This document shows, piece after piece, positions 25,625-34,699 of a DNA stretch of 64,000 bases; the stretch's first letter is position 1, and each line of letters begins with the position of its first letter. The DNA lies in contig JAFGXS010000052.1 in NCBI GenBank assembly GCA_016936505.1, forward strand, positions 62,001-126,000. Direction: 5' to 3'. The notes below the pieces were generated by a model that saw nothing but the letters and a program-made list of their open reading frames with translations, searched no databases and had not been told where the DNA came from. Both the position numbers and the translations under genes were made by a program. The DNA is from Bacteroidales bacterium. GTDB lineage: Bacteria > Bacteroidota > Bacteroidia > Bacteroidales > F082.

Positions 25625-26446
25625 ATGGAAGACAAAAAAATTTTGAACAAACACGGAAAGCTTAAAAATGAAGTTTTTGTTAAAGAACTTGAAAAGCTTC
25701 AGATTGAGTTGATCGAACTACAGGAATGGGTTAAAGCAAATGGCCTAAAAGTTGTGGTAATATTCGAAGGTCGTGATACAGCAGGTAAAAGTGGTGTAAT
25801 TAAACGCATAACCGAAAAACTAAATCCTCGTGTTGTCAGGATTGGTGCATTAGGTGTCCCCACAGAGAAGGAGAAAACCCAATGGTATTTTCAACGGTAC
25901 GTTTCTCAATTACCGGCTGCAGGAGAAGTAGTTCTTTTTGATCGTTCGTGGTACAACAGGGCAGGAGTTGAGCGCGTAATGGGATTTTGTTCTGATGATG
26001 ATTACTGGGAATTTCTGAGGTCCTGTCCTTATTTTGAACGCATGTTGATTAGGTCAGGTATTATTTTAATTAAATACTGGTTCTCAGTTAGTGAAGAAGA
26101 ACAGGAAAAGAGATTTCAATCGCGTTTAAATGACCCTCGAAAAAGATGGAAATTCAGCGCAATGGATTTAAAATCCAGAGATAAATGGGTGGAATATTCT
26201 AAAGCAAAGGACGATATGTTTTCCTATACTGATACAAAAATATCACCGTGGTATGTTGTTGAAGCAGACGATAAAAAACGTGCTCATCTGAACACTATTC
26301 ATCATTTACTGAGTATTATTCCCTATGAGAAATTACCGGTTGACCCTATAACTCTGGGTCCCAGAAAACCAGAAAAGGGTTATGTAAGACCACCTATGCA
26401 AGAACAAACATTTGTTCCTGATATGTTTTCAGAAAAAAAAGAGTAA
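25625..26446 (+). CDS. ppk2: polyphosphate kinase 2
   Basis: A single-domain PPK2 of 273 residues, using polyphosphate to phosphorylate nucleoside di- or monophosphates. The Walker A-like FEGRDTAGKSGVIKRI (about 48-63), lid residues in NPRVVRIGALGVPTEKEKTQWYFQRYV, Walker B VLFDRSWYNRAGVERVMGF, and WKFSAMDLKSRDKW are all present. It appears monocistronic with its own -7 box. The class (ADP/GDP versus AMP) cannot be settled without alignment. Confidence 0.94.
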   Translation: MEDKKILNKHGKLKNEVFVKELEKLQIELIELQEWVKANGLKVVVIFEGRDTAGKSGVIKRITEKLNPRVVRIGALGVPTEKEKTQWYFQRYVSQLPAAGEVVLFDRSWYNRAGVERVMGFCSDDDYWEFLRSCPYFERMLIRSGIILIKYWFSVSEEEQEKRFQSRLNDPRKRWKFSAMDLKSRDKWVEYSKAKDDMFSYTDTKISPWYVVEADDKKRAHLNTIHHLLSIIPYEKLPVDPITLGPRKPEKGYVRPPMQEQTFVPDMFSEKKE

Positions 26447-26565
26447 GATATTAGGGTATAATAATCTATATATCTGATTGTTACCAAAATCATAATCTTA
26501 AAAAATAATAAAACAATATTATAAATGTTGTTTGTTTTAAATATTAAAATACTTTTGCTTACATT
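26447..26565 (+). other. intergenic stretch between ppk2 and the arg leader
   Basis: First part of the 305-base gap before the arg operon. I see no terminator for ppk2 and no structured RNA here, only AT-rich sequence leading into the promoter at 26528-26557. The rest of the gap holds the leader ORF and attenuator described separately. Confidence 0.5.
26528..26557 (+). promoter_or_regulatory. promoter of the arginine operon
   Basis: TTG (26528-26530), exactly 19 bases, then TACTTTTG (26550-26557) matches the Bacteroidota promoter. Transcription should begin near 26564, only a few bases before the leader ORF ATG at 26566. Confidence 0.65.
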
Positions 26566-26676
26566 ATGAATAAGGCAAACACACAAATTATTCCCATATC
26601 TCAGCATTTCGCTGTTGAGCATTTAGTGTGTTCGTTAGTATTTTCATTTAGGCATCCCAGGCGCCTTAGGGCGTAA
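26566..26676 (+). CDS. arginine leader peptide (putative attenuator peptide)
   Basis: A 36-codon ORF in the otherwise empty gap before the arg operon. It starts MNKANTQIIPISQ and ends SFRHPRRLRA then TAA (26674-26676). Four of its last eight codons are Arg (AGG at 26650, AGG at 26659, CGC at 26662, AGG at 26668). The stop codon lies 9 bases before an intrinsic terminator. This is the layout of classical amino-acid attenuators (as in trp, his and leu leaders), where ribosome stalling at scarce-amino-acid codons prevents the terminator. The transcript also folds AACACAC (26578-26584) with GTGTGTT (26626-26632), and CTCAGCA (26600-26606) with TGTTGAG (26613-26619). Expression is not proven. Confidence 0.72.
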   Translation: MNKANTQIIPISQHFAVEHLVCSLVFSFRHPRRLRA

Positions 26677-26685
26677 TATCATTTT

Positions 26686-26711
26686 GCGGAGTTATGCACT
26701 CTGCTTTTTTT
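26686..26711 (+). terminator. attenuator terminator of the arg operon
   Basis: GCGGAGT (26686-26692) pairs with ACTCTGC (26698-26704) over a TATGC loop (7 bp, one G-U) and is followed by seven T residues. It lies between the Arg-rich leader ORF and the first structural gene, where only a regulated terminator makes sense. Confidence 0.8.
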
Positions 26712-26751
26712 CAACTTTTTTTATTTACAATTTTATTTAATAATTACTGAT

Positions 26752-27420
26752 ATGAAGGTAATTGTTTCTGTGGCTGATGAAAGCCACGAAAAGTTCGCAC
26801 AAGATGTGTGCACAATGATTGAAGATGCTGCCCGTTTAAGGGGAACCGGAATAGCAAAGAGAGAACCGGAATACATCAATAAAAAAATTCAGGAAGGAAA
26901 AGCTGTCATCGCAATGGACGGTGAAGAAGTAGTTGGTTTTTGCTATATAGAAAGTTGGCAGGGACAAAAATTTGTAGCAAACTCAGGTTTAATAGTCCAT
27001 CCTGATTATCGTGAAACAGGATTAGCCAAGCAAATTAAAACCAAAACATTTGAGCTTTCCAGAAAAAAGTTTCCTGAGGCCAAGATTTTTGGTATTACAA
27101 CCAGTCTTGCCGTGATGAAAATTAATTCGGAACTGGGTTATAAACCTGTTACGTTTTCAGAACTTACTGAAGATGAAACTTTTTGGAAAGGTTGTCAAAG
27201 TTGCACAAACTATGATATTTTAATGCGTACAAACCGTAAAATGTGTCTGTGTACAGGAATGGTATGTGATCCTAACAGTTTAGCTACACTTCCCAAAGAG
27301 AAAGAAAAAAGAGGAGCTATTCGGTGGAAACAATTTAAGACATTTCTGGCCAATCAAAAACCAGTCTCACATCTTAAGAATTCGGTATATCCAAAAATTA
27401 ACAAAATATTAAACAAATGA
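26752..27420 (+). CDS. GNAT acyltransferase of the arg operon (probable N-acylglutamate synthase)
   Basis: A 222-residue GNAT protein, first gene of the arginine operon. The acyl-CoA site is visible as FVANSGLIVHPDYRETGLAKQIKTKTFELSRKKFPEAKIFGITTS. By position it should acylate glutamate in step one, filling the ArgA role; Bacteroidota are known to use N-succinyl rather than N-acetyl intermediates at the transcarbamylase step, so the donor may be succinyl-CoA. An unusual Cys cluster follows the GNAT core: C148, C151, C165, C167, C172. It overlaps argG by 4 bases (ATGA). Role inferred from operon position. Confidence 0.75.
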   Translation: MKVIVSVADESHEKFAQDVCTMIEDAARLRGTGIAKREPEYINKKIQEGKAVIAMDGEEVVGFCYIESWQGQKFVANSGLIVHPDYRETGLAKQIKTKTFELSRKKFPEAKIFGITTSLAVMKINSELGYKPVTFSELTEDETFWKGCQSCTNYDILMRTNRKMCLCTGMVCDPNSLATLPKEKEKRGAIRWKQFKTFLANQKPVSHLKNSVYPKINKILNK

Positions 27421-28604
27421 GTAAAAAGAAAGTATTACTGGCCTTTAGCGGAGGACTCGATACCTCTTTTTGTGTTTTATATCTGAAACATGAAAAAAAT
27501 CTTGAGGTTCATACAGCAATTGTTAATACCGGTGGCTTTACACCTGAAGATGAGAAAAAAATTGAAGAACATGCATTCAGATTGGGTTCAAAATCACATA
27601 AAACCATTGATGGCACAGGTGATTTTTATGACAATATTGTCAAATACCTGATTTTTGGTAATGTTCTAAAAAACAATACTTATCCGCTTTCAGTAAGTGC
27701 AGAGCGGGTATTTCAGGCCAAATCACTGGCAGAATATGCTGTTTCCATCGGTGCGGATTACATTGCACATGGTAGCACTGGTGCAGGAAATGATCAAATT
27801 CGTTTCGATTTGGTTTTTCAATTGCTTGCTCCAGAGTTGGAGATTCTAACTCCAATTCGCGATCTGCAACTTTCCCGTCAGCAGGAAACAGATTATTTAT
27901 CGAATCATGGAATTAAAATTGATGCTCAGATTTCAAAGTATTCTCTGAATAAAGGATTGTGGGGAACCAGTATTGGGGGCAAAGAAACGCTTACTTCCAA
28001 TGAGCCGCTTCCTGAAGAAGCATACGAAAATCATCTTTCAGAAAGTGAATCAAAAACATTCACTCTCTCTTTTAAAAACGGCGAACCCGAAGCTTTGAAT
28101 GGAAAAAAATTGGGAGCTGTTAAAATTATTCAGCAAATAGAGGAGTGGGCTGCTCCTTATGCCATCGGCCGTGATATGCATACCGGTGACACGATTATCG
28201 GAATTAAAGGGCGTATTGGTTTTGAGGCAGCAGCAGCATCCATTATTATTAAAGCGCACCATGTACTGGAGAAACATACTTTGACCAAATGGCAGCTTTA
28301 CTGGAAAGAGCAGCTATCCAACTGGTACGGAATGTTTCTGCATGAATCTCAATTTTTTGATCCTGTAATGAGAAATATTGAAACATTTCTGTCAGATAGT
28401 CAATTAAATGTAACAGGTGATGTGAAAGTTGCTTTATATCCATACCGGTTTAAAATTTTGGGAATTGAATCACAACATGATTTAATGAATCCTGAATTCG
28501 GGCATTATGGAGAAATCAATAAAGCCTGGACGGGTGAAGATGTAAAAGGTTTTGTAAAAATACTGGCCAACCCTGTAAAAATATATCAAAATGTAAACAA
28601 ATGA
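27417..28604 (+). CDS. argG: argininosuccinate synthase
   Basis: ATP-dependent condensation of citrulline and aspartate. The 395 residues have the PP-loop LLAFSGGLDTSFCVLYL (about 6-22), YIAHGSTGAGNDQIRFD, LTPIRDLQLSRQQE and YSLNKGLWGTSIGGKE. ATGA overlaps join it to the GNAT gene upstream and argC downstream, so the first three genes are translationally coupled. Confidence 0.95.
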   Translation: MSKKKVLLAFSGGLDTSFCVLYLKHEKNLEVHTAIVNTGGFTPEDEKKIEEHAFRLGSKSHKTIDGTGDFYDNIVKYLIFGNVLKNNTYPLSVSAERVFQAKSLAEYAVSIGADYIAHGSTGAGNDQIRFDLVFQLLAPELEILTPIRDLQLSRQQETDYLSNHGIKIDAQISKYSLNKGLWGTSIGGKETLTSNEPLPEEAYENHLSESESKTFTLSFKNGEPEALNGKKLGAVKIIQQIEEWAAPYAIGRDMHTGDTIIGIKGRIGFEAAAASIIIKAHHVLEKHTLTKWQLYWKEQLSNWYGMFLHESQFFDPVMRNIETFLSDSQLNVTGDVKVALYPYRFKILGIESQHDLMNPEFGHYGEINKAWTGEDVKGFVKILANPVKIYQNVNK

Positions 28605-29578
28605 TAAAAGCCGGAATTATAGGAGGAACAGGATATGTAGCGGGTGAGCTCATCCGAATTCTTTTGCAACATCCTGAAGTTAACCTGGAATTTGTCTACA
28701 GCCATTCGCAGGCTGGCAAAAAAGTAAACGGAGTGCACCAGGATTTGTTCACCGCTAAGGAACTAAACTTTAGTGATTCAGTTTCTGATGATGTTGATGT
28801 ACTGTTTTTAAGCCTGGGGCACGGTATTTCAAAGAAGTGGCTGCTAGAAAATAATATTTCTTTATCCACTAAAATAATTGATATGAGCAATGATTTTCGC
28901 TTAAAAAAAGATGCTCAATTCAGTTCAAGAAACTTTGTTTACGGTTTACCAGAAGTGTACAAGAACCAGATTATTCCTTCTATTTCTATTGCAAATCCGG
29001 GCTGTTTTGCTACAGCTATTCAATTGGGACTTTTGCCTCTGGCAGCTGAACACAAGCTTCAAAATAGTGTCCATATTCAAGGGATAACAGGATCTACAGG
29101 AGCAGGGAACCAGTTTCAAGAAACAACACATTTCAGCTGGAGAAACAATAATATCTCCGTTTATAAACCTTTTGTTCATCAGCATTTAGGTGAAATAGGA
29201 GAGACGATTAGCAGATTGCAACCCAACTTTTCACAAGAGCTGAATTTTATCCCCATACGTGGTGATTTCACCCGTGGCATTTTTGTTTCCGTTTATACAG
29301 ATACAGAATTAAAGGAAAATGAATTAGCTGATTTATATCAGGATTTCTATCAGAATGCTCCATTTTCTTTTGTGAGTGAGACTCCTATCCATATGAAACA
29401 AATAGTAAATACCAATTACGGATTATTGCATGTGGAAAAGTTGAATGGCAAGGCTTTGGTTACTGTTGCCATTGACAATCTTTTAAAAGGAGCAGCAGGA
29501 CAGGCTGTGGAAAATATGAATTTAATGTTTGGTTTCAATCAGGATGAAGGATTGAAATTTAAGGCAAACTTTTTTTAA
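28601..29578 (+). CDS. argC: N-acyl-gamma-glutamyl-phosphate reductase
   Basis: The NADPH-dependent third step of arginine biosynthesis. The 325 residues start AGIIGGTGYVAGELIRILLQHPEV (nucleotide fold). The active-site Cys is in IANPGCFATAIQLGLLPL, and the HQHLGEI and NNLLKGAAGQAVENMNLMFG-like ending of the family is present. It overlaps argG by 4 bases and is followed 10 bases later by proC. Confidence 0.94.
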   Translation: MIKAGIIGGTGYVAGELIRILLQHPEVNLEFVYSHSQAGKKVNGVHQDLFTAKELNFSDSVSDDVDVLFLSLGHGISKKWLLENNISLSTKIIDMSNDFRLKKDAQFSSRNFVYGLPEVYKNQIIPSISIANPGCFATAIQLGLLPLAAEHKLQNSVHIQGITGSTGAGNQFQETTHFSWRNNNISVYKPFVHQHLGEIGETISRLQPNFSQELNFIPIRGDFTRGIFVSVYTDTELKENELADLYQDFYQNAPFSFVSETPIHMKQIVNTNYGLLHVEKLNGKALVTVAIDNLLKGAAGQAVENMNLMFGFNQDEGLKFKANFF

Positions 29579-29588
29579 TAAATAGATT

Positions 29589-30401
29589 ATGGAACAGATT
29601 AAAATTGCCATCATTGGTACAGGAAACCTTGGACTTTCCATCGTTAAGGGACTATTACAATCGGACTTAAAGGATAAAGTAAAAATTATCGCTACCCGGC
29701 GCAAATGGAACAAGTTGCCATTTCCTGAAACAGAACAGCTTTCTTTTACAACCGATAATAAAATGGCTGTGTCACAATCAGATGTGATAATTTTTTCTGT
29801 TCAACCCGAACAGTTTGACGCTATTGCTTTGGAAGTAAAATCATTGTTGAAAGAAAAGGTTATAATTTCTACTATTACTGGGCTCACATTGAAAGGACTA
29901 AAGGAACAACTGGGTTCTCATTTGAAACTGGTACGTTCCATGCCTAATACGGCAATTGGTGTTAGCCAATCAATGACTTGTTTAAGCCATAATGGAGATG
30001 AGGAGAGTGCTAAAGCAGCTCAGAATATTTTCAATTGTTTAGGCAAAACGCTCATCATTGAAGATGAATTAATGCAGGCAGCTACAGTGCTGGGGGCCAG
30101 TGGAATTGCTTTTTGGATGCGATTAATCCGTGCTACAACTCAAGGCGGAATTCAGCTTGGATTTGATGCTCAAGAAGCCAAATTCATTGCGGTACAAACC
30201 TGTCTGGGAGCTGCCAGTATTCTGGAATCTGACGAAAATATTCATCCTGAAAGTGAAATTGATAGAGTAACCACTCCAAAGGGCTGCACAATTAAAGGTC
30301 TCAATCAAATGGAACATGAGGGGATGAGTTCCGCGCTGATTCACGGACTGGTATCTTCGTATGAAATGATTACAGAAATCAAAGACAAAATTGAAAAGTA
30401 A
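29589..30401 (+). CDS. proC: pyrroline-5-carboxylate reductase
   Basis: NADPH-dependent reduction of P5C to proline. The 270 residues have the N-terminal IAIIGTGNLGLSIVKGLLQS dinucleotide site, VRSMPNTAIGVSQSMTCL and the C-terminal dimer helices with VTTPKGCTIKGLNQMEHEGMSSALIHGL. Its place between argC and argD is typical of Bacteroidota arg operons, tying proline and arginine synthesis. The ATG of argD overlaps its stop by one base. A side role on arginine intermediates cannot be excluded. Confidence 0.92.
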   Translation: MEQIKIAIIGTGNLGLSIVKGLLQSDLKDKVKIIATRRKWNKLPFPETEQLSFTTDNKMAVSQSDVIIFSVQPEQFDAIALEVKSLLKEKVIISTITGLTLKGLKEQLGSHLKLVRSMPNTAIGVSQSMTCLSHNGDEESAKAAQNIFNCLGKTLIIEDELMQAATVLGASGIAFWMRLIRATTQGGIQLGFDAQEAKFIAVQTCLGAASILESDENIHPESEIDRVTTPKGCTIKGLNQMEHEGMSSALIHGLVSSYEMITEIKDKIEK

Positions 30402-31537
30402 TGAAATTATTTGATGTATATCCACGTTTTGATGTCACTTTAGAAAGAGCTGAAGGTGTTTTTGTTTATGATAAAAATGGAAAGAAATACCTTGATCTTT
30501 ATGGCGGTCACGGTGTGATATCAATCGGGCATACTCATCCTGTTTATGTGAACAAGCTTAAAAAACAGCTTGATAAAATGGTATTTTACTCTAATTCCGT
30601 TGACTTACCTATTCAGGATGAATTGGCTGAAAAACTGGGCAACCAGTCAGGTTATCCTGATTATGATTTATTTTTATGTAATTCCGGAGCTGAAGCCAAC
30701 GAAAATGCACTGAAACTGGCTTCATTTCACAATGGTAAGAAGAAAATAATTGCTTTTAACAAAAGCTTCCACGGACGCACATCGGCTGCAGTTTCAGTAA
30801 CAGACAATCCAAAATTGTCAGCCCCCATCAATCGGGATGGATTTGAAGTTGAATTCATTGAACTGAATAATGAAACAACTCTTAAGCAAAGCCTCCAGAA
30901 AAATAATGTTTGTGCTGTTATTGTCGAAGGAATTCAGGGAGTAGGGGGATTGGATGCGCCATCAGAAGCCTTTTTAAAGACGTTGTCTGATTTTACCAGA
31001 AAGAACAATGCGTTACTTATTCTGGATGAAATTCAGAGCGGATACGGACGTTCTGGAAAGTTTTTTGCTCATCAGTATGCCGGAATAAAACCTGATTTAA
31101 TTACTGTTGCAAAAGGTATGGGAAATGGTTTCCCTGTTGCAGGAGTGCTTATCAGTCCTGAAATTAATGGGAAAAGCGGAATGCTGGGAACAACTTTTGG
31201 TGGTAATCCGTTTGCCTGTGCGGCAGGACTTGCTGTTCTTGAAGTACTGGAAAATGAAAACTTGATGCAAAATGTAAACAATGTAAGTTCTTATTTATTG
31301 AAAGAGCTTAAGCAAATACCTCAAATTAAAAAGATTAAAGGCAAAGGCCTGATGATGGGAGTGGAGTTTGATTTTCCTGTTGCTGACCTTAGAAAGAAAC
31401 TTTTGTTTGAGCATCAGATTCTTACGGGATCATCGTCAAATCCAAATCTAATCCGTATTTTACCGCCTCTTTCAATAAAAACTGAACAAATCAGTGCTTA
31501 TCCTGCAGCATTGAAACAGGTGATGTCAGAACAATAA
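30401..31537 (+). CDS. argD: N-acylornithine aminotransferase
   Basis: A PLP aminotransferase making N-acylornithine from the semialdehyde. The 378 residues have GGHGVISIGHTHP, FLCNSGAEANENALKLA, the PLP-phosphate region SFHGRTSAAVSVT, LLILDEIQSGYGRSGKFF and the PLP-binding Lys in ITVAKGMGNGFPVA, then GTTFGGNPFACAAGLAVLEV. Acetyl versus succinyl substrate cannot be read from the sequence. Coupled to proC by TAATG and followed 9 bases later by argB. Confidence 0.92.
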   Translation: MKLFDVYPRFDVTLERAEGVFVYDKNGKKYLDLYGGHGVISIGHTHPVYVNKLKKQLDKMVFYSNSVDLPIQDELAEKLGNQSGYPDYDLFLCNSGAEANENALKLASFHNGKKKIIAFNKSFHGRTSAAVSVTDNPKLSAPINRDGFEVEFIELNNETTLKQSLQKNNVCAVIVEGIQGVGGLDAPSEAFLKTLSDFTRKNNALLILDEIQSGYGRSGKFFAHQYAGIKPDLITVAKGMGNGFPVAGVLISPEINGKSGMLGTTFGGNPFACAAGLAVLEVLENENLMQNVNNVSSYLLKELKQIPQIKKIKGKGLMMGVEFDFPVADLRKKLLFEHQILTGSSSNPNLIRILPPLSIKTEQISAYPAALKQVMSEQ

Positions 31538-31546
31538 ATTTGAGAA

Positions 31547-32323
31547 ATGAAGAAACTTAAGATAGTCAAAATCGGAGGAAATGTACTGGACTCAGACAAG
31601 TTACTGGATGAATTCCTCGAAGGATTCTCTGCACTGAAAGGGCCAAAGATTCTTGTTCATGGGGGTGGAAAAATGGCCACCGAAGTGAGTAAGAAATTAG
31701 GAATCACATCTCAGGTAAAAGATGGACGCAGAATCACTTCAGAATCTGATCTTCAGGTTGTTACCATGGTATATGCCGGATGGCTTAATAAAAATCTTGT
31801 GGCTCAGCTTCATTATAAAGGTTGTCAGGCTGTGGGATTATCGGGTGCTGATGCAAATACTATTTTATCTGAGAAACGTCCGGTTCAGGAGATTGACTAC
31901 GGTTGGGTAGGGGACATTAAAAAAATCAACGGACTATGGATATCTCTGATTCTTGAGCAAGGGTTATCTCCGGTATTCAGTGCCATAACTCACGATGGAA
32001 ATGGACATTTATTAAATACAAATGCTGATACTATTGCGGCAGAAATGGCGGTAGGTATGAGTTCTTTTTATGAAACCGAACTAATCTACATTTTTGAAAA
32101 AAAAGGGGTACTTTCGAACATTGATGATGAAAATTCTGTTATTGAGGAACTGAGTTACAAAAACTATGAAGAAGGCAAATCATCCGGAACTATCCATGCT
32201 GGAATGTTGCCCAAGCTGCATAATGGCTTCAATGCATTAAAAAGAAATGTAAATTCTGTTAAGATTGCGGATCAGTCGATATTGAATTCTGAATCAGGGC
32301 AGTGTACACAATTGATTTTATGA
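31547..32323 (+). CDS. argB: N-acylglutamate kinase
   Basis: An amino-acid kinase family member of 258 residues phosphorylating N-acylglutamate. Motifs are IVKIGGNVLD, ILVHGGGKMATEVSKKLG, GLSGADANTILSEKR, GWVGDIKKING, HLLNTNADTIAAEMAVG and SSGTIHAGMLPKLHNGFNAL. The absence of the long N-terminal helix argues against the arginine-inhibited hexameric form, so feedback may act elsewhere; this is an inference. The ATGA at 32320 starts argE. Confidence 0.93.
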   Translation: MKKLKIVKIGGNVLDSDKLLDEFLEGFSALKGPKILVHGGGKMATEVSKKLGITSQVKDGRRITSESDLQVVTMVYAGWLNKNLVAQLHYKGCQAVGLSGADANTILSEKRPVQEIDYGWVGDIKKINGLWISLILEQGLSPVFSAITHDGNGHLLNTNADTIAAEMAVGMSSFYETELIYIFEKKGVLSNIDDENSVIEELSYKNYEEGKSSGTIHAGMLPKLHNGFNALKRNVNSVKIADQSILNSESGQCTQLIL

Positions 32324-33390
32324 ATATGATGCAGAAAGAAAATTTATATAATTCAGCTTTATCATTGTTAAAGCAATTGATTGAAACACAATCTTTTTCA
32401 GGTGAAGAAGATCAGACTGCCGGATTAATCAATACCTGGCTTCAGAATTATGGCGTTAAAACTACAATTACACACAATAATGTTTGGGCCGTAAATAAAT
32501 ATTTTAGTGAGGATAAGCCTACAATCTTACTGAACTCTCACCACGATACGGTCAGACCAAACAAAGGTTATACGCGAACCCCTTTAAAAGCTGAAGAAGA
32601 AAACGGAAAGTTGTTTGGTTTGGGCAGCAACGATGCCGGGGCTCCTTTGGTTTCACTACTCAACACATTTGTTTACTATTATAATAAAACAGATTTGAAA
32701 TATAATCTGGTTATGGCGGCCACCGGTGAAGAAGAAAGTTCTGGCCCACATGGTTTGAATAGTTTAATTAAACAGCTACCGGAAATCGATTTTGCAATTG
32801 TGGGAGAACCCACTCAAATGCAGATGGCCATTGCTGAAAAGGGATTGCTGGTTTTGGACGGATATGCACCCGGAATTGCCGGTCACGCAGCGCATGAAAA
32901 TACTGACAATGCCATTTACAAAGCGTTGGAAGACATTCATTGGATTAAAAATTATCATTTCCAAAAAATTTCCCCCCTGTTAGGAAAGGTTAAAATGACT
33001 GTAACTCAAATTGAAGCCGGTTCTGAACACAATGTAGTTCCGGCAGAATGTCATTTTGTAGTCGATATTCGGGTGAATGAAAACTATCGGAATGAAGAAA
33101 TTTTTGACTTCATTCAAAGCAACACAAAAAGCAATATGGTTGCCCGTTCATTTAATCTGAACCCATCTTTTATATCTGCTGATCATCCGGTTGTTTTGGC
33201 AGGAAAAAAGTGGGGGAGGGAAACCTATGGTTCTCCGACCCTTTCTGATCAATCTGTTTTATCATGCCCGTCATTAAAAATGGGACCTGGAGACTCTACA
33301 AGATCACATCAGGCGGATGAATTTATTTATTTAAATGAATTGAAAGAAGGAATTGATTTATATATCAATATTTTAAGTGAAATTTTGTAA
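32320..33390 (+). CDS. argE: M20 metallopeptidase, N-acyl-citrulline/ornithine deacylase
   Basis: A zinc M20 deacylase of 356 residues that removes the acyl group late in the pathway. Ligands are the His-Asp of LLNSHHDTVRP, Asp in GLGSNDAGAPL, the catalytic Glu pair TGEEESSG and the His in the C-terminal ADEFIYLNEL region. The frame extends to a GTG at 32302, but the ATG at 32320 overlaps the argB stop as ATGA, the same coupling used elsewhere in the operon. With no argJ present, a linear (deacylase) route is indicated. Confidence 0.88.
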   Translation: MNMMQKENLYNSALSLLKQLIETQSFSGEEDQTAGLINTWLQNYGVKTTITHNNVWAVNKYFSEDKPTILLNSHHDTVRPNKGYTRTPLKAEEENGKLFGLGSNDAGAPLVSLLNTFVYYYNKTDLKYNLVMAATGEEESSGPHGLNSLIKQLPEIDFAIVGEPTQMQMAIAEKGLLVLDGYAPGIAGHAAHENTDNAIYKALEDIHWIKNYHFQKISPLLGKVKMTVTQIEAGSEHNVVPAECHFVVDIRVNENYRNEEIFDFIQSNTKSNMVARSFNLNPSFISADHPVVLAGKKWGRETYGSPTLSDQSVLSCPSLKMGPGDSTRSHQADEFIYLNELKEGIDLYINILSEIL

Positions 33391-33415
33391 TTGCATATAC
33401 AAACTATTTTAAGCT

Positions 33416-34699
33416 ATGAAACTCTGGGATAAAGGCTATACAGCAGCACAATGGGTTGAAAAATTTACTGTTGGAAATGATCGTATTTTGGATATGAAAC
33501 TGGCAAAATATGATGTTATAGCCAGCAAAGCTCATGCTCAAATGCTCAATAAAATTAACATTCTCACCAATGAGGAGCTCAAAAGCCTGGTTTCAGCTTT
33601 GGATGAAATCATGAAATCCATTGAAGAAGGCTCTTTTACCATTGAGAAAGAGTTTGAGGATATGCACAGTAAGATCGAGTATATTTTGACTCAAAAGACC
33701 GGAGATGCAGGGAAAAGGATTCACACGGCCCGATCTAGAAATGATCAGGTGCTGGTAGCGCTACACTTGTATGTTAAGGAAGAAGCGAGCCAGATTAAAG
33801 AAATTATGCAGCAATTATTTGACACTTTGCTGGAATTGGCTGAAAAATATAAAGATATATTGTTGCCAGGCTATACACATTTACAGGTAGCAATGCCATC
33901 ATCTTTCGGGCTGTGGTTCTCAGCCTATGCAGAGAGCCTGATTGATGATTTAATCCTGCTGAATGCGGCAGCTCAGGTAACCGACCAAAACCCATTGGGA
34001 TCAGCAGCAGGGTATGGTACTAGTTTTCCTGTTGACAGAACTTACACAACTGAATTAATAGGTTTTAAAACACTTAAATACAATTCAGTAGCGGCTCAGA
34101 TGAGCCGTGGAAAGCTTGAAAAAACACTGGCCTTTGCGTTGGCGTCTGTTTCCGGAACACTATCCAAACTGGCCTCTGATATCATTATGTATATGAACCC
34201 GAATTTTGGATTTTTGAGTTTCCCTAAAGAATTTACAACCGGTTCAAGTATTATGCCTCACAAGCAAAACCCCGATGTTTTTGAGCTACTACGAGCAAGA
34301 AGTAATAAAATCCAAAGCCTGCCTGCTGAAATTATCCTCATGACAAACAATCTCACCAATGGTTATCACCGGGATTTTCAGTTGTTGAAAGAAAGTTTGC
34401 TGCGTTCAGTTGATGAAGTAAAAGAAAATTTGACTGTACTTTGTGATATTTTGCCTGAAGCTCAGCCCAAAGAAGGTATTCTAGATCAGGAAATGTACGA
34501 TCCTATTTTTAGTGTAGAGACTGCAAATCAGTTAGTCCTGAAAGGAATGCCATTCCGTGATGCTTATAAAAAAGTTGGAAAAGAACTAGCTGACGGAAGT
34601 TTTGTTCCTGAAAAAGGTATCGAATATACTCACGAAGGAAGTATTGGAAATTTGTGCTTAAAGGAAATTCGTGAGAAATGGAATAATTTCTATCCATAA
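33416..34699 (+). CDS. argH: argininosuccinate lyase
   Basis: The final step, splitting argininosuccinate into arginine and fumarate. The 427 residues have EFEDMHSKIEYILTQKTGDAGKRIHTARSRNDQV, LPGYTHLQVAMPSSFGLWF and the fumarase-family signature GSSIMPHKQNPDVFELLRAR. It is the last gene of the operon, ended by a bidirectional terminator at 34811-34845. Confidence 0.95.
   Translation: MKLWDKGYTAAQWVEKFTVGNDRILDMKLAKYDVIASKAHAQMLNKINILTNEELKSLVSALDEIMKSIEEGSFTIEKEFEDMHSKIEYILTQKTGDAGKRIHTARSRNDQVLVALHLYVKEEASQIKEIMQQLFDTLLELAEKYKDILLPGYTHLQVAMPSSFGLWFSAYAESLIDDLILLNAAAQVTDQNPLGSAAGYGTSFPVDRTYTTELIGFKTLKYNSVAAQMSRGKLEKTLAFALASVSGTLSKLASDIIMYMNPNFGFLSFPKEFTTGSSIMPHKQNPDVFELLRARSNKIQSLPAEIILMTNNLTNGYHRDFQLLKESLLRSVDEVKENLTVLCDILPEAQPKEGILDQEMYDPIFSVETANQLVLKGMPFRDAYKKVGKELADGSFVPEKGIEYTHEGSIGNLCLKEIREKWNNFYP

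Follow-up and report, generated by a model that had tools for sequence, protein, structure and literature searches.

Arginine biosynthesis is a standard example of control by the repressor ArgR. The arg locus described here resembles the attenuators of the trp, his, leu, ilv, and phe operons, in that it has a short ORF rich in codons for the pathway product, a terminator-like hairpin before the operon, and a promoter just upstream. Within the same phylum, leader attenuation has been described before amino acid operons of F. psychrophilum, with pheA and hisG among the conserved 5′ elements (PMC9723704); the proposed principle is the same as ours, and arg is not named in the part of that report on which we draw. 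In the open-access literature, which was the scope of our search (older subscription papers fall outside it), we found no description of a leader peptide before an arg operon in this phylum.

The DNA analyzed, here called the window, is a 64,000-nt stretch from Bacteroidales bacterium (F082), assembly GCA_016936505.1, contig JAFGXS010000052.1, positions 62,001 to 126,000; all coordinates are window positions. Numbered labels denote genomes (G), loci (L), families (f), contigs (C), and alignments (A), and g65 is a genus.

The arg leader region and its conservation in the genus

The features of the region are listed in Table 1. NCBIfam and Pfam back the operon products as GNAT, ArgG, ArgC, ProC, ArgD, ArgB, an ArgE/DapE-like deacylase, and ArgH. 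This agrees with the initial annotation, which had described an intrinsic terminator and an eight-gene arg operon 40 bases past it: hairpin H2 is followed by a run of seven T (T7), and the first operon ORF starts 40 bases after T7. There is no carbamoyltransferase gene in the operon, and the three PF00185 matches are on other contigs (C5, C74, and C51). The upstream gene encodes polyphosphate kinase, is on the same strand, and ends at position 26446.

TABLE 1 Positions of the leader elements and of the arg operon in the window
Feature	Position	Strand	Basis or remark
Bacteroidota-type -7 box TACTTTTG (TAnnTTTG), 8 nt 5′ of leader ATG	26550..26557	+	Exact in 8/9 genus leaders, one mismatch in ninth
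Leader ORF, 36 codons, MNKANTQIIPISQHFAVEHLVCSLVFSFRHPRRLRA, TAA stop	26566..26676	+	Read from sequence; 34 to 37 codons in 9/9 genus loci
Hairpin H0 within leader ORF	26600..26619	+	Terminator scan and fold
Arg codons AGG 26650, AGG 26659, CGC 26662, AGG 26668; presumed stall site	26650..26670	+	4 Arg in last 8 codons
Hairpin H1, GCGCC-TTAG-GGCGT, over last codons and first base of stop	26661..26674	+	Terminator scan
Hairpin H2, GCGGAGT-TATGC-ACTCTGC (26686-26704), and T7 (26705-26711); intrinsic-terminator-like	26686..26711	+	Terminator scan
Putatively regulated operon: GNAT, argG, argC, proC, argD, argB, argE-like, argH	26752..34699	+	NCBIfam and Pfam

The leader ORF that had been proposed, with four Arg codons among its last eight, was confirmed by direct reading of the sequence: it runs from an ATG at 26566 to a TAA at 26674-26676, and its peptide ends in FRHPRRLRA. 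Of the 23 Arg codons that the nine genus leaders carry within their final ten codons, 20 are AGG, compared with 106 of 689 in the long ORFs of the window. We attach no probability to this excess, because the leaders share ancestry and structural constraints may account for part of the AGG use.

The "consensus promoter" of the initial annotation did not survive as a sigma-70 match, since the promoter scan has no plus-strand site of the sigma-70 type at the claimed place. Instead, a box of the form TAnnTTTG precedes the leader, as reported for F. psychrophilum at positions -12 to -5 (PMC9723704). In the genus, this box sits 8 to 10 nt ahead of the ATG and is exact at all loci but one of the nine, which at the level of sequence predicts a promoter upstream of the leader ORF. 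From the position of the box, transcription would be expected to start near 26562, giving a 5′ untranslated region of about 4 nt. Because the box is of the Bacteroidota type, the leader ORF would therefore be almost leaderless. An exact box 3 to 12 nt before the ATG was found in 16 of 83 leaders (shuffles: mean, 1.1; maximum, 5), 8 of which are from the window's genus; with one mismatch allowed, the count is 36 of 83 (shuffles: 14.5; maximum, 20). By this prediction, nearly leaderless leader ORFs are clear in the window's genus and probably recur beyond it.

The genus set comprises 12 genomes, including the window's own, with completeness of 86 to 99%. Nine of them encode the first operon protein. 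The three without its gene are G006 (87% complete), G009 (86%), and G010 (95%), and the gene may have been missed in G006 and G009 because these are only 87 and 86% complete. Co-conservation in relatives had been set beforehand as a test of the proposal, and the leader ORF, its Arg codons, H1, and H2 are kept in all nine genomes that have the first operon gene. Each of these leaders is 34 to 37 codons long, with two or more Arg codons among the final ten; H1 covers the end of the ORF, and a 7- to 9-nt spacer separates the stop from H2. They fall into two types, one ending in RRLRA (the window and G007) and one ending in RPPFGV or RPPSGV (seven genomes), whose last ten codons include only two for Arg. 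The window and G007 share 90% identity in the first operon protein, although their leader peptides are alike in little but length and the RRLRA end. The peptides diverge and the frame persists, and it therefore seems that the reading frame, the Arg codons, and the RNA hairpins are the features that are kept. The element also accompanies the arg operon despite a different upstream gene in G005, G008, and G001 (judged by eye).

A covariance model of H1 plus H2 matches these nine genomes at E < 1e-13, each at the arg operon, these being the same sequences from which the model was built. Elsewhere in the genus, it gave weak matches in G006 (E = 0.04) and G010 (E = 0.02) and none in G009, and no second site in the window's own genome scored better than E = 1.09. 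The best match outside the genus, in G043 (E = 4e-4), lies within a 358-amino-acid ORF that resembles a kinase and was taken as a chance match.

Hairpins, termination, and the search for an antiterminator

The terminator scan returned 3 sites in the 401 bases of this region, compared with an average of 0.1 in shuffles. At the position of H0, the consensus structure of the genus also has a hairpin, in which 2 of 5 pairs are double-changed in one sequence and one pair is double-changed in another. The seven RPPFGV/RPPSGV leaders have GCCCC-CCTTC-GGGGT as the counterpart of H1. H2 is paired in 63 of 63 cells across the nine sequences, and the single variable pair among its seven is double-changed in four of them. 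The H2 pentaloops in the genus are UCCGU (seven), UACGU (one), and UAUGC (one). A general U-N-N-G-Y loop rule did not hold throughout and is kept only as a lead: it fits all nine genus loci and five of seven f51 leaders, which have UACGU, UACGC, or UAUGC loops on different stems, and it fails in f65, f44, and f45. Loops of two f53 leaders were read by eye alongside this rule. Also by eye, the second hairpin in f47 has kept UAGGUGAGUCC-like loops, UGAGU/UGUGU.

We scored a terminator as canonical if at least 6 of 8 nucleotides were T and used a looser rule of at least 5 of 8. A canonical U-run follows H2 at only one of the nine genus loci, that of the window; among the 73 Arg leaders from other families, 3 have one after the hairpin. 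By the looser rule, terminators are present in 5 of 9 loci in the genus (shuffles, 0.4), 7 of 29 in f65 (0.85), and 4 of 7 in f51 (0.2). Intrinsic termination at H2 is likely in the window genome, judging from the hairpin and T7. Of the 27 gene 3′ ends in the window without a close same-strand neighbor, only 5 carry a hairpin terminator under the looser rule. Across the 64-kb window, no Rfam family matched at its curated threshold.

The antiterminator suggested in the initial annotation, ATTTCGC pairing with GCGGAGT, is not supported. Its 7 pairs exist, and 5 of the 9 genus leaders have the pairing at one common place, but such pairing does not clearly exceed that of shuffled leaders: the best leader pairings to the first arm of H2 total 123 in the genus, compared with a shuffled mean of 117, and 16 of 100 shuffles are equal or higher. 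The proposed antiterminator strand is part of H0, a hairpin that might form again in the wake of a stalled ribosome. In the genus, we found no helix between the Arg codon stretch and the tail after H2 (total, 100 versus 100.2 in shuffles; 112 of 200 as high) and none between the whole leader and this tail (123.5 versus 130.2; 89 of 100 as high). By eye, in alignment A4, the second arm of H1 can pair with the second arm of H2 in leaders of the RPPFGV type, whereas leaders of the window type do not allow this.

In f65 (21 leaders, alignment A5, in which some rows end within the helix tested), there is a long-range helix between leader codons 7 to 10 and the stretch 3′ of H2, with 85.7% of cells paired compared with at most 44.7% in slid versions. 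Fifteen cells are double-changed (shuffles, 4.4), and the covariation score is 0.220 (shuffles, 0.097); the number of pairs with double changes (4 versus 2.7) and of pair types (8 versus 6.6) does not stand out from shuffles. No such long-range helix was found in the window's genus.

A ribosome is reported to cover up to 12 nt past the stop codon (PMC4833913). A ribosome parked at the leader stop would therefore touch H2, which begins 7 to 9 nt beyond the stop across the genus, and this argues against the simplest attenuation logic.

Arg leaders and ArgR across the phylum

No ArgR (PF02863) was found in any of the 12 genus genomes, which are 86 to 99% complete, compared with 8 of 14 control genomes; overall, it is present in 19 of 100 genomes searched. 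Clear relatives of the first operon protein from outside the genus are encoded in 19 of the 100 (G092, E = 8.6e-4, is not counted). ArgR is encoded by 15 of these 19, and 12 of the 15 carry it directly upstream of the first gene. In one relative without ArgR, G067, we saw by eye an Arg-containing leader, IRVRRGSSAASVLVRI followed by a stop, behind a TATGTTTG box; no such leader was seen upstream in the ArgR-less relatives G023, G063, and G075. Among phylum-sample genomes with the first protein, ArgR is convincing in five, and G132, with a marginal match (25 bits, one internal stop), was counted as ArgR lacking.

The phylum sample consisted of 395 genomes, 158 of which encode the first operon protein; 148 of these and the window were examined, and of the remaining nine, eight came without listed coordinates and one, G364, has its locus 167 bases from a contig end. 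Altogether, we examined 176 upstream regions (9 from the genus, 19 from further relatives, and 148 from the phylum sample), 157 without ArgR and 19 with it. A region was scored as passing if, within 330 nt upstream, it contained an ATG-initiated ORF of 12 to 60 codons whose last ten codons included k or more for Arg. At k = 4, 53 of the 157 ArgR-lacking loci pass, compared with a mean of 0.95 (maximum, 2) in shuffles, 0 on the reverse strand, and 2 for the best other amino acid. At k = 3, 75 of the 157 pass, compared with a mean of 6.8 (maximum, 10) in shuffles, 9 on the reverse strand, and 20 for the next amino acid, Leu. Only 1 of the 19 ArgR-containing loci passes at either value of k, but these are not a matched control, because their upstream DNA is mostly coding. 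Counted by genus, which is the only correction for kinship, 41 of 75 pass at k = 3 and 25 of 75 at k = 4.

At k = 3, passing loci are found in f65 (29/29), f47 (16/37), f44 (8/10), f51 (7/8), f45 (7/12), and f48 (2/3), and there are none in f46 (n = 6), f64 (n = 4), f79 (n = 8), f89 (n = 3), and f93 (n = 4). The window's own genus has just 2 of 9. About half of the ArgR-lacking loci fail the test, which counts against the attenuator reading. Named genera with Arg leaders include Maribacter, Allomuricauda, Pricia, Tenacibaculum, Winogradskyella, and Nonlabens. Under a looser rule of at least 2 Arg codons, 45 of 57 named loci examined (80 were fetched) pass, two of which (Marinifilum) look unconvincing. 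Based on these comparisons, a predicted Arg leader before the arg operon is widespread, although not universal, in ArgR-lacking members of the phylum.

Several other arrangements were observed during the survey. Tandem Arg-containing leader ORFs precede the arg operon at L062, L101, L209 (Tenacibaculum), L232 (Wocania), L252 (Neptunitalea), and L245 (Polaribacter). At g65 loci such as L078, L096, L114, and L115, a conserved ORF that contains few Arg codons, MNKISLHITSLSRTNSPITSPEVRTLSL or a near copy, lies a long way ahead of the arg operon. By eye, L187 and L189 (Labilibaculum) and L230 (Marinifilum) have an ORF that adjoins the first arg gene and carries Arg runs close to its beginning (DFRRRCFRE in Labilibaculum), preceded farther upstream by an SRRHLRS stretch and a U-run hairpin. 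In G266, G306, G345, G357, G377, and G491 (f79), in G412, G451, and G475 (f93), and in G200, a single in-frame stop, in most cases TAG, falls within the match to the first operon protein, which may reflect recoding, an error, or a match that extends beyond the end of the gene. One viral contig encodes a relative of the operon's first gene.

Sister leaders, alternative readings, and known systems

Leaders of the same general form, with runs of His, Phe, or Ile, precede other amino acid genes in the window's genome. The hisG leader (L279) encodes MNYNMHHHHHITIHLR before its stop, with a hairpin that includes the His codons and then a 12-bp hairpin whose end is a run of six U; three of these U may form part of the stem. 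The pheA leader (L280) encodes MNHSSVRFYTFFFYFYFKNKRG before its stop and is followed by a 10-bp hairpin and seven U. The ilvD leader (L283) encodes MQVNSIHIILSILIIVKE before its stop, with an Ile run, and is followed by a hairpin with a ten-T run; by eye, CGGAGGG 3′ of this leader can pair over 7 bp with CTCTCCG in the first arm of the terminator, which is a textbook antiterminator. Two chorismate-binding genes have no such leader within 320 nt upstream. Since His, Phe, and Ile leaders come with U-tract terminators, the genome appears to use classical attenuation, and by analogy these sister leaders appear to be the strongest indirect support for the arg leader.

The initial annotation had read the region as an arginine attenuator, and this reading is supported by the presence of the element at 9 of 9 genus loci, by the count of 0 of 12 for ArgR, and by the three sister leaders in the same genome. 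Based on the anatomy, the conservation, the enrichment for Arg codons, the failure to find ArgR, and the sister leaders, we consider it probable that the region is a ribosome-mediated leader attenuator of the arg operon that senses charged tRNA-Arg, and this is our best reading. Transcription would start about 4 nt before the leader ATG, with a ribosome trailing the polymerase. With ample charged tRNA-Arg, the leader would be completed, and H2 and the U-run would end most transcripts. With scarce charged tRNA-Arg, the ribosome would wait at the cluster of minor Arg codons that directly precedes the stop; changes in H1 and in the distance from ribosome to polymerase would follow, and the eight-gene operon would be read. 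Several observations weigh against this reading: the canonical U-run is confined to one genus locus, no antiterminator exceeds chance in the genus, seven of the nine leaders carry just two Arg codons near their end, and H2 varies at a single pair.

One alternative is that the leader does sense Arg-tRNA but that intrinsic termination is not its output; H1 and H2 would work instead by way of Rho, pausing, RNA decay, or first-gene translation, and the U-run of the window would be incidental. This would explain why a canonical U-run is missing from 8 of the 9 loci in the genus and from 70 of the 73 Arg leaders in other families, and it fits the strong conservation of the H2 sequence and pentaloop in the genus. 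In all 29 f65 loci, C exceeds G in the stretch after the leader (mean, 26% versus 13%), as Rho sites prefer, and even a 5-of-8 T terminator is present at only 5 of the 27 gene ends in the window. The speF leader of Salmonella pairs Arg codons with Rho-dependent termination (PMC6386406). Nevertheless, we think this alternative rather unlikely: H2 and T7 of the window make a good intrinsic terminator, U-tract terminators follow the his, phe, and ilv leaders of this genome, and the tail in the genus is U rich (47% T), with C about equal to G (17 and 14%).

The strong conservation of H2 could also reflect direct sensing of free arginine or ornithine by the nascent peptide or the RNA, as an arrest peptide or riboswitch, in place of tRNA charging, and RPPFGV, with its two Pro codons, does recur in the genus. 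However, the peptide is not conserved (RRLRA in the window and G007, RPPFGV/RPPSGV in seven genomes, and different again in other families), the proline stretch coincides with an arm of H1, and no Rfam family matched at threshold, so that such a sensor is very improbable. Less probable still is a chance arrangement in which an untranslated ORF lies beside the terminator of the polyphosphate kinase gene. Short ORFs are common, and that gene ends upstream on the same strand, but a promoter box lies between it and the leader ORF, and the element stays with the arg operon in G005, G008, and G001, where the upstream sequence differs (by eye). The shuffle and reverse-strand controls also speak against chance, which is already contradicted by the conservation.

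Beyond the attenuator reading of the window, a broader scenario can be put forward tentatively, and we regard it as possible but doubtful. In it, ArgR would have been lost or replaced, perhaps several times, by Arg leaders in large parts of Bacteroidota, many of them near-leaderless, and H2 (with a U-N-N-G-Y loop in some clades and mostly without a U-run) would be a new kind of termination or pausing signal, worked by the ribosome without a classical antiterminator. If true, many Bacteroidota control the arg operon via tRNA charging, and one operon offers many natural variants, in which two questions could be tested: by what means attenuation operates when a leader ORF begins nearly at the RNA 5′ end, and how one amino acid sensor replaces another in evolution.

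Two described leaders that respond to arginine are similar in part. The leader of Salmonella speF, orf34, has 34 codons and responds to arginine by way of consecutive Arg codons (AGG CGG); its target, in contrast, is an ornithine decarboxylase, repression at high arginine proceeds by mRNA decay, and when the leader is untranslated, Rho ends transcription (PMC6386406). Staphylococcus aureus rbfL is a leader peptide with Arg codons, one of them a rare AGG, that senses arginine limitation, but its effect is on the translation of a biofilm regulator, which it represses under arginine shortage (PMC13009471). ArgR control of arg operons concerns the same pathway but uses a protein repressor, which was found in 0 of the 12 genus genomes. 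Compared with the trp, his, leu, ilv, and phe attenuators, the arg locus differs in that its U-run is not kept in relatives, its antiterminator is not clear, its ORF is near-leaderless, and its presumed signal is arginine. The proposed mechanism is of a known kind, ribosome-mediated attenuation, and the variant parts are the repressor not found, the lack of a clear antiterminator, the near-leaderless leader, and the presumed arginine signal.
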